A stretch of DNA of 64,000 nt, taken from positions 124,001 to 188,000 of the forward strand of contig NZ_JAESVB010000006.1 of assembly GCF_020618775.1 (NCBI RefSeq). The letters are read 5' to 3'. Each line of letters starts with the position of its first letter. The stretch's first letter is position 1. This stretch comes from Acidisoma silvae (GTDB lineage Bacteria > Pseudomonadota > Alphaproteobacteria > Acetobacterales > Acetobacteraceae). A model generated the notes under the pieces. That model was not told the origin of the DNA. It ran no database searches and was given only the letters and a program-made list of their open reading frames with translations. Below are positions 59,721 to 64,000 of the stretch, one piece after another. The translations under genes and the position numbers were made by a program.

Positions 59721-60815
59721 CTAGCGGTCCAGGCGCTGGCCCGCCAGATGGCGCAGCGCAGGCCGCTCTATAGAAAGCGCCGTGATCCAGGCAAGAGCGA
59801 GATTGGCCAGGAACACGATCACCAGCCACAGATAGGGGTGTCGCGCCGGATCGCTATGGGTTGCCTGCCAGAAGCGGGTGAAGACGACCTCGACCGGCGC
59901 ATAGGCCATGTAGAAAGGATAGGTGAGCGCGCCGAGGCGGATCAGCCCCGGCAGCCGCGCAAGGACGTGCCGCTGGCCGGCGGCCAGCGCCCAGAGCAGA
60001 CACCAGAGCGCATAAACGACTGCCGCATCGCCGAGGGTTGTGGATCGGCGCAGCCAGAGGCCAGCAGCCAGAAGAAGAAGCCCGCCGATGGCGATCATCA
60101 CAGGCTTGTGCCATGGCCGCCGGTCCAGACGCAGCAGCCGCGCCAGCAGAATGCCGCCGATGAATTCCGGCAAAAAGCGCGGCAGCGCGCCCTGATAGCT
60201 GAGATTGAGCCCGCTTCGCGACAGGCCGCTGACCAGAAGCAGCAGCGCGGCCGAGACGACGAGGCCCCAGCCGGTCCCGCGCCACCCCAAGCGGCCGACG
60301 CCAATGGCCAGCGCAGGAAAAAGCAGATAGCCAGCCCATTCCGTGCTGATGGACCAAGAGGGGTAGTTCCAGGCCCAGCCCTGGCTGAACCCGAATCCGT
60401 TGAGCAGAAACACTTGCAGCAGGAATTCCCGGCCGCTGGCGCGCGACGCCTCATGCGGCGGCACCCCCGCGAGGCGCGCGAAGAGAAAAAGCACGCCAAG
60501 CAGCAGAAGCATGGCGAGCGCCGTCGGATAGAGCCGGATGAAGCGGCGCCACCAGAAACGTGCCGCGGCTGAAACCGTACGGGCAGGCTGCGGATAGCGG
60601 TGGGCAAGAACGAGACCGGACAGGATGAAGAATCCATCAACGCCCAGATAGCCGCGTCCGATCAGATTATCCTGACCGGCAAAGAGAAGATGCAGATTGG
60701 CGTGATAGGCGAAAACCCACAGCGCCAGCAGACCGCGCATGGCCGTGAGGTCCGGCAGATCGGCCTTCGGATCATCCCATGCGGCCAAGGAGCCCCTCAT
60801 TGCGCTACAAGACAT
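59721..60815 (-). CDS. Acyltransferase 3 family membrane protein
   Basis: 364-residue O-acyltransferase, about ten helices. [22 protein letters not shown] with the conserved His, then [32 protein letters not shown] with the Arg cluster, and [15 protein letters not shown] with the Trp-Ser...Glu motif are all present. Acceptor unknown. ATG 60815 or 60800 are possible starts. It lies 38 bp upstream of proS on the same strand. Confidence 0.85.
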
Positions 60816-60904
60816 TTCGCCATTTCAGAAATTCCTGAAAAGTCGAGATGCGGTCTTCATTTTTTTGAAAATATCGCGTGACAGCGCGCGCTTGCATAGC
60901 TAAA

Positions 60905-60997
60905 GAAAAGGCCCGCGCGCTAAAGCGCTGCGGGCCAAGTTTAGGGAGGAAACGCCAGTCACACGGCAGAACGAGGATCAACCTCATCCGTGACTGG
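60905..60997 (-). ncRNA. Candidate sRNA 1 with CCUCCC loop, minus strand
   Basis: No protein frame is supported. In order on the minus strand: a 43-nt hairpin with 8-bp stem CCAGTCAC/GTGACTGG (60990-60997 with 60955-60962) and an inner GAGG/CCTC stem; a mini-hairpin GTTT-CCTCCCT-AAAC (60939-60953); then a near-perfect terminator stem GGCCCGC(A)GCGC/GCGCGCGGGCC (60910-60936) followed by TTTTCTTT. This three-hairpin layout with an exposed CCTCCC matches alphaproteobacterial anti-Shine-Dalgarno sRNAs. A possible promoter is TTGGAC, an 18-bp spacer, then CATTAT at about 60998-61030. Ends approximate. Confidence 0.55.
60910..60936 (-). terminator. Rho-independent terminator, minus strand
   Basis: An 11-bp stem with one bulge and a TTTA loop; on the minus strand it is followed by TTTTCTTTA. 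It ends the putative sRNA, or possibly long rne transcripts. It lies 95 bp before the downstream acyltransferase start. Confidence 0.8.
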
Positions 60998-61132
60998 ATA
61001 ATGAAATCCGAGCACCGCTACGTCCAATAAAAACGGCTCGATAAATCGACGAAAATCGCTCGCTCAGACAATTTTCGCCTCAAAAATAGTCAAAATCAAA
61101 AAAATGTTCGGTTTCTAGGCAATAATGCCAGC

Positions 61133-61233
61133 CGCGACTGCCCAATTGCTGGTCTTCCCGGCACTACCTCCCCAATTTTTAGAATGCCCCGAATCACATC
61201 GGGCGGGAGCTTGGCGCTCCCGCCCGATTTTTT
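61133..61233 (+). ncRNA. Candidate sRNA 2 with CCUCCCC loop, plus strand
   Basis: A strong plus-strand terminator (61198-61233) has no protein gene in front of it on that strand. The ~100 bases before it contain a hairpin CCAGC/GCTGG (61128-61132 with 61148-61152), a GGCA/TGCC loop (61160-61163 with 61185-61188) exposing ACCTCCCC, and the terminator. AATAAT at 61121-61126 could be a -10, but the -35 is poor. Ends approximate. Diverges from candidate sRNA 1. Confidence 0.5.
61198..61233 (+). terminator. Rho-independent terminator, plus strand
   Basis: ATCGGGCGGGAGC-TTGGC-GCTCCCGCCCGAT, a 13-bp perfect stem with a 5-base loop, continuing into a T6 run. The 5' side has no A tract, so it acts for the plus strand only. 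The segment just before it (GCCCCGA) can pair with TCGGGC of the stem, an alternative fold. Confidence 0.9.
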
Positions 61234-61291
61234 GCGTGCCTTCGATCCCTCAGTTTGAGACTGAAGCAAGTCCTATCACTGTCATCCCCGC

Positions 61292-61340
61292 GCTTGGCCA
61301 GCGGCGCTTAGCCAGCGGCGCTTAGCCAGCGGCGCTTGGC
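61292..61340. repeat. 14-bp tandem repeat inside a REP-like element
   Basis: Units of GCTT(A/G)GCCAGCGGC at 61292, 61306 and 61320, with a truncated copy at 61334. The array sits between GTCATCCCCGC and CCGGGGATCA, the arms of a REP-like palindrome, so it looks like expansion of the loop. Confidence 0.7.
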
Positions 61341-61376
61341 CCGGGGATCAACGCGGTGTAGCGCTCAAAGGCCTGG

Positions 61377-61400
61377 ATGCCCGGCACGGCGGCCGGGCAT
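61377..61400. repeat. REP-like palindrome 3' of rne
   Basis: ATGCCCGGC-ACGGCG-GCCGGGCAT, a 9-bp perfect stem followed by GACG, of the same family as the elements at 23.36-23.95 kb. It lies 57 bp after the rne stop on the far side of its coding strand. Confidence 0.65.
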
Positions 61401-61456
61401 GACGAGGACAGGCGTTTCTGACCTAATGCGAAACGCCCGGCGGACAGAGTGGAAGC

Positions 61457-64000
61457 TCAGCGCTTCCACCAACCCCGGCGCTTCTCGGCGACCGGCGTCT
61501 CTGATCCGATGACGACCGGCTTGATGACCGGAGCGGCCGGTTCAGCTTCGGCGGCAACCAGTTCAGGCTCCGCTGCCACCGGTTCGGCGATGGCCGGTTC
61601 AGCCACGACATCCACGGCAGCCACCTTGGCGCGGCTGGTGCGACGACGCGCCGGCTTGGCCGGTGCCACTTCGGCGGCCGGTTCAGCCGCTGCCTCGACC
61701 ACAGCCGCTGCCGCTTCGACCGGCACCTCGGCCTCGACCGCCGCCACCTTCGGTTTGCGAGCACGGGACGCGCGCGGCTTCTTCGCCGGCGCTTCGGTGG
61801 GCGCGACGTCGACCGCGACGACCTCGGCGACAGGCGCCTCGACCCGGACGAGTTCCACCGGCGCCTCGTCGGTCTTCTCCATGGGCGCGCTCAGCAGGCT
61901 TTCCGCCAAAGCGACCGTGGACACAGGGTCACCCGCGACCGGCGCATCGACCACCGCGACGTCCAAAGCCTCCTGGATTTTGGCGGGTTTGGCCGCGACC
62001 GGCCGCGCCGGCTCCATGTCGGGCTCGACCACCGCGAACAGCGCCTCGATCGAGTCATAGGTGAAGGGATCGGCCGGGGTCGGGCCGCGATAGCCGGCCG
62101 GCGCCGGAGCCGACGGCGTTTCCGCCTGCCCAGCGGGGCGACGGTCGCGTCCACGACCACCACGGCGACCGCGACGGCTGCGCCGTGCCTCCCCATCCTC
62201 GCCCGCCGACAGCGGCGGCGTCATGTCAGGGCTTGGCTCGGCCGGCGGCACGATTTCAGGCGCATCCTCACCCGGCGGCGGCAGTTCCGGCGCCTGGCCC
62301 GGCTCATAGGGGCCCGGCGTAGGCACAGGGATCGGGAACGGCGGCACGGCGGGTTCCTGCGGCGCGGGACCGGGCTCGGGAGCGGTTGCGACCGCGTCAT
62401 CCTCGCCGTCGAAATCCTCACCGTCATCGCCTTCGGCGTCAGCCTGACCGTTCTCGGCCTGAACGCCATTTTCCCCATTCTCGCGACGGCCACGGCGGCG
62501 ACGGCGGCGACGGCGACGGCGTTCACCGCTATCATCGCCACGCGCTTCCTCGGTCACGGCAGAAACCGCCGTGCCGGCACCGGCCACAGCATCAGCGGCC
62601 GGAGCATCGGCGACCAGCGCCGCGTTGCGCACGGCGCCGCGATCCTCGTCATCCGCATTATCGTCCCGCGCCGCATAATCCATGGCGATGGGCGAGGAGC
62701 CGTTGGCGACCGGCGCTTCCGACGCCACATAGGGCCGCACCTTCTCGATCCGCACCTGCGGCGGCACCAGCTTATCGTCAGCCGCCAGCATAACCTGAAT
62801 GCCATGCGTGCGCTCGATCGCCATCAGGCGGTCGCGCTTCTGGTTGAGGATATACATGGCGACCGTGCCGGCGACATGGACCAGAATCTCGGCCGAACGA
62901 CGCCGCGCCGCCTCGTCCTCAATGGCGCGCAGCACATGAATGGCCGCGCTTTCGACGCTGCGGACGGTCCCGGTGCCCATGCAATGCGGGCAGGTGATGA
63001 AGGCGGTTTCGGCCAGCGACGGGCGCAGGCGCTGACGGCTCATCTCCAGCAGGCCGAAATGGCTGATGGACCCGACCTGGATGCGCGCACGGTCGTTCTT
63101 CAGCGCGTTTTTCAGACGCGCCTCGACCATGGCGTTATGCTTGCGGCTCTCCATGTCAATGAAATCGATGACGATGAGACCGGCAAGGTCACGCAGGCGC
63201 AGCTGGCGGGCGGCTTCGTCGGCGGCCTCCAGATTGGTGCGAAGCGCCGTTTCCTCGATATTACGCTCACGCGTCGACCGACCGGAATTGACGTCGATCG
63301 CGACCAGCGCCTCGGCCTGGTTGATGACCAGATAGCCGCCGGATTTGAGCTGAACCGTGGGGTTCATCATCGCGTCCAGCTGCATTTCCACCTGGTTCTT
63401 GTGGAAGAGCGAGGTGTCATGACCGCGCCACAGCTGCACCTTGGCGGCATGCTGCGGGGTCAACATGCGCATGAAGTCACGCGCGGCCTTCCAGCCGGCC
63501 TCGCCGTCGACCAGCACTTCCTCGATATCGCGGGTATAGCCGTCGCGGATGGCGCGTTTGATGAGGCTTGCTTCCTCATAGACCAGCGCCGGGGCAACCG
63601 ATTTCAGGGTCAGCTCGCGGATATCGTCCCACAGGCGCAACAGATATTCACAGTCGCGGCGGATTTCCGGCTTCGGCCGGTTGGCGCCGGCGGTGCGGAC
63701 GATCAGCCCCATGCCGGCCGGCATGTCCACTTCCTTGATAACTTCGCGCAGGCGCTTGCGGTCGGCGACCGACGTGATCTTGCGGGACACGCCACCGCCG
63801 CGCGGCGAGTTGGGCATCAGTACGCAATAGCGGCCGGCCAGCGACAGATAGGTGGTCAGTGCCGCGCCCTTGGTGCCGCGCTCTTCCTTGACCACCTGGA
63901 TCAGCAGGATCTGGCGGCGATGGATGACTTCCTGAATCTTGTAGTTGCGGACGAAACGCGGCGGGGACCGGCGTTCGCCGTTCTCTTCCGTCGAGTCATT
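61457..64000 (-). CDS. rne: Ribonuclease E, C-terminal ~847 residues (5' end outside window)
   Basis: Endoribonuclease scaffolding the RNA degradosome. The frame stays open through base 64000 (NDSTEENGERRSPPRFVRNY...), so the S1 N-terminal part lies beyond the window. Visible: the end of the S1 domain, 5' sensor and DNase I-like catalytic domain (VAIDVNSGRSTRERNIEETALRTN; LIVIDFIDM), and the zinc link TCPHCMGTGT. A long disordered tail follows, rich in Ala, Pro, Glu and Val, with Arg-rich patches (GERRRRRRRRRRGRRE; RRSRRGRRGGRGRDRR) likely to bind RNA. It ends EKRRGWWKR; in Caulobacter a C-terminal GWW motif recruits PNPase. Confidence 0.95.
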   Translation of the reverse strand, partial: NDSTEENGERRSPPRFVRNYKIQEVIHRRQILLIQVVKEERGTKGAALTTYLSLAGRYCVLMPNSPRGGGVSRKITSVADRKRLREVIKEVDMPAGMGLIVRTAGANRPKPEIRRDCEYLLRLWDDIRELTLKSVAPALVYEEASLIKRAIRDGYTRDIEEVLVDGEAGWKAARDFMRMLTPQHAAKVQLWRGHDTSLFHKNQVEMQLDAMMNPTVQLKSGGYLVINQAEALVAIDVNSGRSTRERNIEETALRTNLEAADEAARQLRLRDLAGLIVIDFIDMESRKHNAMVEARLKNALKNDRARIQVGSISHFGLLEMSRQRLRPSLAETAFITCPHCMGTGTVRSVESAAIHVLRAIEDEAARRRSAEILVHVAGTVAMYILNQKRDRLMAIERTHGIQVMLAADDKLVPPQVRIEKVRPYVASEAPVANGSSPIAMDYAARDDNADDEDRGAVRNAALVADAPAADAVAGAGTAVSAVTEEARGDDSGERRRRRRRRRRGRRENGENGVQAENGQADAEGDDGEDFDGEDDAVATAPEPGPAPQEPAVPPFPIPVPTPGPYEPGQAPELPPPGEDAPEIVPPAEPSPDMTPPLSAGEDGEARRSRRGRRGGRGRDRRPAGQAETPSAPAPAGYRGPTPADPFTYDSIEALFAVVEPDMEPARPVAAKPAKIQEALDVAVVDAPVAGDPVSTVALAESLLSAPMEKTDEAPVELVRVEAPVAEVVAVDVAPTEAPAKKPRASRARKPKVAAVEAEVPVEAAAAVVEAAAEPAAEVAPAKPARRRTSRAKVAAVDVVAEPAIAEPVAAEPELVAAEAEPAAPVIKPVVIGSETPVAEKRRGWWKR

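Follow-up and report, generated by a model that had tools for sequence, protein, structure and literature searches.

The 64,000-nucleotide stretch of the Acidisoma silvae genome analysed here (hereafter the window) contains a gap of 641 bp (60816-61456) which separates an acyltransferase gene (Acyl_transf_3) from the RNase E/G gene (rne), both on the minus strand. A first-pass annotation of the letters, which had described this gap correctly, proposed that it holds two divergent small RNAs (sRNAs) with exposed CCUCCC motifs. The question is how many RNAs are encoded here and to which family they belong. Our analysis makes it highly probable that the minus strand of 60905-60991 encodes one trans-acting sRNA of the alpha-r8 (MmgR/SisA) family and that the plus-strand element is a lone terminator hairpin with a chance motif.

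Identification of the minus-strand sRNA

Search of the whole window against Rfam using cmscan gave only two matches above the gathering score, one tRNA and RF00519, the latter at 60895-60974 on the minus strand with 44.3 bits (gathering score, 41). RF00519 is named suhB or 'Makes More Granules Regulator RNA, mmgR', and the MmgR family is also called alpha-r8. The alignment spans the entire model, with both the GGCGUUUCCUCCCUA core and the terminator covered, and the minus-strand RNA is therefore a member of the alpha-r8 family. Other Rfam families matched in the gap 60816-61456 (P31, a betaproteobacterial sRNA, NmsRb and others) all remained under their own gathering scores.

Both outward-facing terminators expected in the gap are present, the plus-strand one (with its T run) by terminator scan and the minus-strand one by Rfam alignment and fold; the simple scan listed the plus-strand one only. 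CCTCCC also occurs on both strands, at 60944-60949 (minus) and 61167-61172 (plus). The 87-nt RNA beginning at the predicted start, which we place near 60991 from the promoter position, folds into a 5' hairpin, a weak hairpin, an open seed and the terminator, with a z score of -4.11. The alpha-r8 arrangement of a single-stranded UUUCCUCCCU after a weak hairpin is thus present in the sequence and in this fold, with a Rho-independent terminator directly downstream of the RNA. A GTTT-CCTCCCT-AAAC mini-hairpin, noted earlier, can be read in the letters, but CCUCCC is unpaired in the minimum-free-energy fold. In this genus a more upstream start would let CCAGUCAC base-pair with GUGACUGG, and the start site therefore matters. 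The suggestion of an exposed CCUCCC resembling an anti-Shine-Dalgarno seed, a theme of alphaproteobacterial sRNAs, was right for the minus-strand RNA, where the motif gains its meaning from the family match and the conservation and not from the hexamer alone.

The RNA had been likened to Cuckoo/CcsR-type families, which it resembles only generally in having a C-rich, anti-Shine-Dalgarno-like loop; it belongs to alpha-r8/MmgR (RF00519) instead. Rfam, which may hold no Cuckoo model, gave no Cuckoo-type match up to E = 5. The motif CCUCCUCCC, which we take to be the Cuckoo/CcsR loop motif as named in the first-pass annotation, is found on neither strand: the minus strand carries UUUCCUCCCU with CCUCCC and the plus strand ACCTCCCC. 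Cuckoo/CcsR RNAs are described as associated with DUF1127 genes (CIN1 locus) in PMC10253847, whereas no DUF1127 was found among the three neighbouring genes scanned with Pfam. Coordinates of the features are collected in Table 1.

Table 1. Features of the gap between rne and the acyltransferase gene, in window coordinates
Feature	Position	Strand	Basis
Predicted alpha-r8/MmgR-family sRNA gene (about 87 nt, ends inferred)	60905-60991	-	RF00519 match; fold z -4.11; R1 match 113.5 bits
Seed UUUCCUCCCU, predicted single-stranded	60943-60952	-	Sequence; fold from predicted start
Nearly invariant 17-nt stretch CUGCCGUGUGACUGGCG, directly 5' of seed; contains the weak hairpin of the family	60953-60969	-	Identical in 39/43 distinct subclass copies
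5' hairpin, 8-bp stem, covarying in the subclass	60969-60989	-	6/8 pairs changed on both sides; 91.1% of cells paired; fold
Rho-independent terminator hairpin, then UUUUCUUU	60910-60936	-	Rfam alignment; fold; covariation alignment
Predicted -10 element CATTAT	60998-61003	-	Promoter pattern at fixed place in 29/43 subclass copies
Predicted -35 element TTGGAC, 18-nt spacer	61022-61027	-	Same promoter pattern
CCTCCCC, probably chance	61167-61173	+	Absent in 4/4 congener loci; shuffle probability 0.058
Intrinsic terminator, 13-bp stem, T run; no identified gene upstream	61198-61233 (hairpin 61198-61228)	+	Terminator scan

Copies in A. silvae and across the Acetobacteraceae

The A. silvae genome contains six RF00519 matches, all over the cut-off, of which the window copy is the lowest-scoring. 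All six share the seed UUUCCUCCCU followed by TAAACTTG, and TTTCCTCCCTAAACTTG is common to six out of six. Five of them are of one type, having a 5' stem followed by UUGGACG-UUUCC, while the window copy belongs to a second type with GUGUGACUGGCG-UUUCC. Two of the five canonical copies (3-kb loci L001 and L004) lie near tRNA genes, one about 0.3 kb from tRNA-Ser and the other about 1 kb from a tRNA-Ile/tRNA-Pro pair.

Among 200 genomes of the family Acetobacteraceae, 167 match RF00519 at E <= 0.001 and 163 over the cut-off. The 33 genomes without a match, of which the 20 listed are 1.9-3.7 Mb in size, may point to a loss in one lineage. A single genome (G126, locus L048) carries three alpha-r8 copies in tandem, about 250-270 bp apart. 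An RF00519 search also gave a match in Thermus composti, one of 14 control genomes, so isolated RF00519 matches need context. The alpha-r8 family itself is already known, and the Acetobacteraceae copy adds a member to it. Our literature search returned no paper on alpha-r8 RNAs of Acetobacteraceae; the family survey of Lagares et al. 2016 (Mol Phylogenet Evol 99:182), which lay outside this search, may already list these copies in its phylogenetic treatment.

Conservation and covariation of a proS-linked subclass

A DNA search with the gap matched 32 of 60 genomes (A. silvae counted), and the matches read outside the genus fall on the minus-strand RNA, which is conserved in place in each of the five genus members studied. 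For the analysis of structure, 24 subclass copies were aligned (alignment A2), omitting three displaced or divergent copies (L023, L032, L033) and three from other families (L034-L036); another alignment (A3) was dropped because it placed the 5' stem less well. In the predicted subclass structure, the 5' stem (8 bp) is followed by a weak hairpin of 5 bp and then by the terminator. In the 24 sequences 93.5% of the cells of this structure are paired, against a shuffle mean of 86.5, and 10 of 23 pairs are changed on both sides, against a shuffle mean of 5.8. None of 500 shuffles reaches any of the five covariation measures, and versions of the structure slid along the alignment are only 44-54% paired. 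Covariation was not seen in helix 2, the weak hairpin, in this alignment, as it hardly varies.

A covariance model of the subclass (R1) matches 170 of the 200 family genomes at E <= 0.001. At 62.2 bits or more it matches 124 of the 200 (126 rows in total), of which 23 supplied sequences to the model and 101 are independent of it. The next scores are 56.5, 55.1, 53.4 bits and lower, a range which also holds canonical copies. Across the class, 289 genomes were drawn (A. silvae included, and at least four of the same family); 99 of them match at E <= 1e-9, and the best score among the 288 other genomes is 55.6 bits. The subclass of the window copy is marked by the covarying 5' hairpin, the near-invariant 17-nt stretch and a predicted promoter of its own. 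We conclude that, within Acetobacteraceae, the window RNA is in a proS-linked subclass which differs from the canonical siblings in its 5' half and its promoter.

Gene neighbourhood

Pfam scanning of the window identified three neighbours of the RNA, namely RNase E/G, Acyl_transf_3 and a class II tRNA synthetase; the window rne shares 81% identity with its counterpart in Acidisoma cellulosilyticum. In a synteny sample of 48 loci from 39 genomes, proS is present downstream of the RNA on the same strand in 36/39 genomes, and the RNase J gene (rnj; Pfam RNase_J_b_CASP) upstream on the same strand in 33/39. The six genomes without an upstream RNase J are A. silvae itself, two congeners and three whose upstream sequence extends for no more than about 0.6 to 1.6 kb. 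In the genus Acidisoma (the window, L037, L038, L039 and L074) rne is located upstream instead and the acyltransferase gene lies between the RNA and proS; in the A. silvae draft genome the RNase J gene is on another contig. Judging from identical BLAST statistics, L037, L038 and L039 are probably the genomes G003, G001 and G002, respectively. Because adjacency to rne is limited to this genus, while elsewhere in the family the RNA is flanked by RNase J and proS, its position beside rne is a local rearrangement, and the idea of a new locus type beside RNase E fails.

A dispersed repeat occupies 61235-61425, between the plus-strand terminator and rne, with 10 further partial matches in the A. silvae genome, the longer of which are up to 86% identical over 65-75 bp. 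It is adjoined by a 14-bp tandem repeat (61290-61345).

The plus-strand element

The plus-strand terminator is strong, and its hairpin and T run are kept in A. cellulosilyticum. However, the two short stems reported before it could not be substantiated, since the stretch 61125-61197, which excludes the terminator, folds no better than shuffles (z -0.27; 69/200 at least as good). The low z of longer plus-strand pieces is due to the terminator. Nor were conserved stem-loops with the motif borne out in relatives: CCTCCC is absent from the plus strand of the same gap in four of four congeners (L037, L038, L039 and L074), including the one which keeps the terminator. Over the whole window CCTCCC is rarer than chance (12 matches vs 43 expected), and mononucleotide shuffles give a chance of 0.058 for its presence in 61090-61197. 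A search for paralogues of the element in the A. silvae genome gave weak matches to the terminator hairpin only. The congener comparison covered CCTCCC and sequence similarity, so that a dissimilar RNA could be present. The likeliest reading, held at modest certainty because a lineage-specific RNA is possible, is a lone hairpin of terminator or insulator type that lies between the sRNA gene and rne and is preceded by a CCTCCCC occurring by chance.

Alternative explanations

As the plus-strand CCTCCCC is not kept in congeners, evidence for a divergent pair is lacking, and of the two proposed sRNAs only the minus-strand one (RF00519) stands. Two sRNAs with anti-Shine-Dalgarno loops lying back to back and expressed from a shared region would explain why a strong terminator stands on the plus strand although no gene on that strand precedes it, and why its hairpin is preserved in A. 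cellulosilyticum, the nearest relative. This arrangement is nevertheless very improbable, given the motif's absence in all four congener loci (chance probability about 0.06), the lack of excess structure before the terminator, and the finding that among 60 genomes searched (A. silvae included) only G003 matched at the plus-strand terminator in the syntenic place, beyond the minus-strand RNA. A scan of 60600-61500 showed no sigma-70-type promoter on either strand, which counts little because it misses the minus-strand promoter too. For the hairpin itself, we consider the chances even that it belongs to rne, as an insulating terminator or a processed 3' end, and does not mark the end of an independent plus-strand RNA; this would be compatible with a single minus-strand sRNA. 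By eye, a G+C-rich hairpin lies between the sRNA promoter and rne in three other congener gaps (L038, L039 and L074), but these hairpins are different sequences. Moreover, the T run in the window is on the plus-strand side only, so the hairpin would not by itself terminate rne transcripts.

The minus-strand RNA could also be imagined as a cis-acting leader (attenuator) of the downstream acyltransferase-proS genes, as its terminator precedes a gene, it is on the proS strand in 36/36 genomes with proS, and the proS match usually starts 130-450 nt downstream of the seed. We regard this as a slim prospect, however, since identical core and seed are present in five further copies in the same genome, where the downstream genes scanned are unrelated (DUF347, DUF2721, a histone-deacetylase fold and a porin). 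In addition, two loci (L082 and L090) keep the RNA with no proS within the 7.5 kb taken, and members of the family elsewhere act in trans (PMC12559287). A trans-acting alpha-r8 sRNA remains our preferred reading of the minus strand.

Promoters and PhaR-like motifs

The subclass promoter pattern, formulated after the sequences had been looked at, is present in 29/43 copies, always equally far upstream of the seed. It consists of (A/G/C/T)TGGAC or TTGTCC, a spacer of 17-19 nt and a (C/A)AT(C/T)(A/T)T- or CACCAT-like element. Upstream regions were also compared for a PhaR core, YGCRNYGCR, derived from the Sinorhizobium meliloti PhaR motif and counted in 140 nt upstream; the counts exclude loci L037-L044, any upstream region under 140 nt and duplicates of an identical region. 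The core occurs in 33/36 canonical copies (dinucleotide-shuffle mean 9.1, maximum 15), the canonical set being the highest-scoring RF00519 loci plus the five A. silvae copies and not a random sample. Since it also occurs in 9/43 proS-type copies (shuffle mean 3.3, maximum 10), the difference between the classes rests on number and position together. Within the canonical clusters at -99 to -86 and -49 to -41 from the seed, windows which were chosen after seeing the counts, the core is found in 33/36 canonical vs 2/43 subclass copies. The narrower form CTGCN3GCA gives 27/36 vs 2/43, while an A/T-armed version of the S. meliloti motif, as formulated here, is not enriched (1/36 canonical, 0/43 proS-type). 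Unclassified copies, counted apart, have the core in 12/16.

In A. silvae, which encodes a PhaR-type regulator (PF07879), the core is present upstream of four of the five canonical siblings, and L001 and the window copy are without it. In loci L045-L073, positioned PhaR-like motifs flank the canonical alpha-r8 promoters and are similar to the site that PhaR binds in the mmgR promoter of S. meliloti. Judged from these motifs, the canonical siblings look wired to PHB status, like mmgR, whereas the window copy does not, which suggests that the window subclass may be a copy uncoupled from PHB control.

Comparison with known alpha-r8 RNAs

Like the window RNA, MmgR of S. meliloti matches RF00519 and has the UUUCCUCCCU 10-mer with a weak hairpin before and a terminator after it. 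MmgR lowers PHB and phasins (PMC8401924), and PhaR (AniA) acts as a repressor of mmgR, whose promoter it binds in EMSA (PMC12542648), whereas the window copy and its subclass are without such motifs at the sibling positions. MmgR is also single-copy (PMC12559287), in contrast to the six copies of A. silvae. Each of the four alpha-r8 RNAs of Caulobacter crescentus, SisA-D, has a weak hairpin followed by single-stranded UUUCCUCCCU, together with a terminator; the 10-mer is the same in SisA-D and MmgR, and in SisA it represses mRNAs by pairing upstream of start codons, while the sponge CrfA titrates the SisA-D siblings (PMC12559287). MmgR and SisA-D are reported to be Hfq-associated and trans-acting (PMC12559287, PMC8401924). 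Several same-seed siblings at dispersed loci in one genome are common to C. crescentus and A. silvae. However, SisA-D are described in PMC12559287 as having no shared upstream motif, whereas the canonical siblings of Acetobacteraceae share positioned PhaR-like motifs, and SisA adjoins an FGase gene (PMC12559287) while the window copy adjoins proS.

Proposed function and implications

Family match, structure, conservation, covariation, synteny and the absence of the plus-strand motif were computed, and we infer transcription, start, Hfq dependence, targets and the direction of regulation. The sRNA would be transcribed from its own promoter and is predicted to fold into the 5' hairpin, the weak hairpin, the exposed UUUCCUCCCUAAACUU and the Rho-independent terminator. 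By analogy with its family, together with Hfq it would most likely base-pair to purine-rich Shine-Dalgarno regions of mRNAs, and pairing there would lower their translation. The 11-mer complementary to the seed has 8 matches in the A. silvae genome (reversed control 1), six of which are the antisense of the sRNA genes. The two others, tried as targets, precede short ORFs without sign of being genes and are at chance level. The complement of the 17-nt extension gave fewer matches than its reversed control (20 vs 42, at up to 2 mismatches). No target is named from these genome-wide searches.

It is possible, though we advance it only tentatively and with more doubt than confidence, that Acetobacteraceae have two functionally split alpha-r8 classes with the same seed: PhaR-wired canonical siblings, and a proS/rnj-linked class, that of the window RNA, in which the PhaR sites have been lost and which has a fixed promoter of its own and a nearly invariant 17-nt seed extension. 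The latter would be a housekeeping regulator whose long extension would pair with a specific partner RNA, either mRNA or sponge, out of reach of the canonical ones.

Our analysis removes a claimed new sRNA pair and places one half of it in a studied family. It also provides a ready comparative test, spanning a whole bacterial family which includes PHB producers, for how duplicated sRNAs with the same seed diverge in their 5' extensions and in whether their promoters are wired to PhaR.
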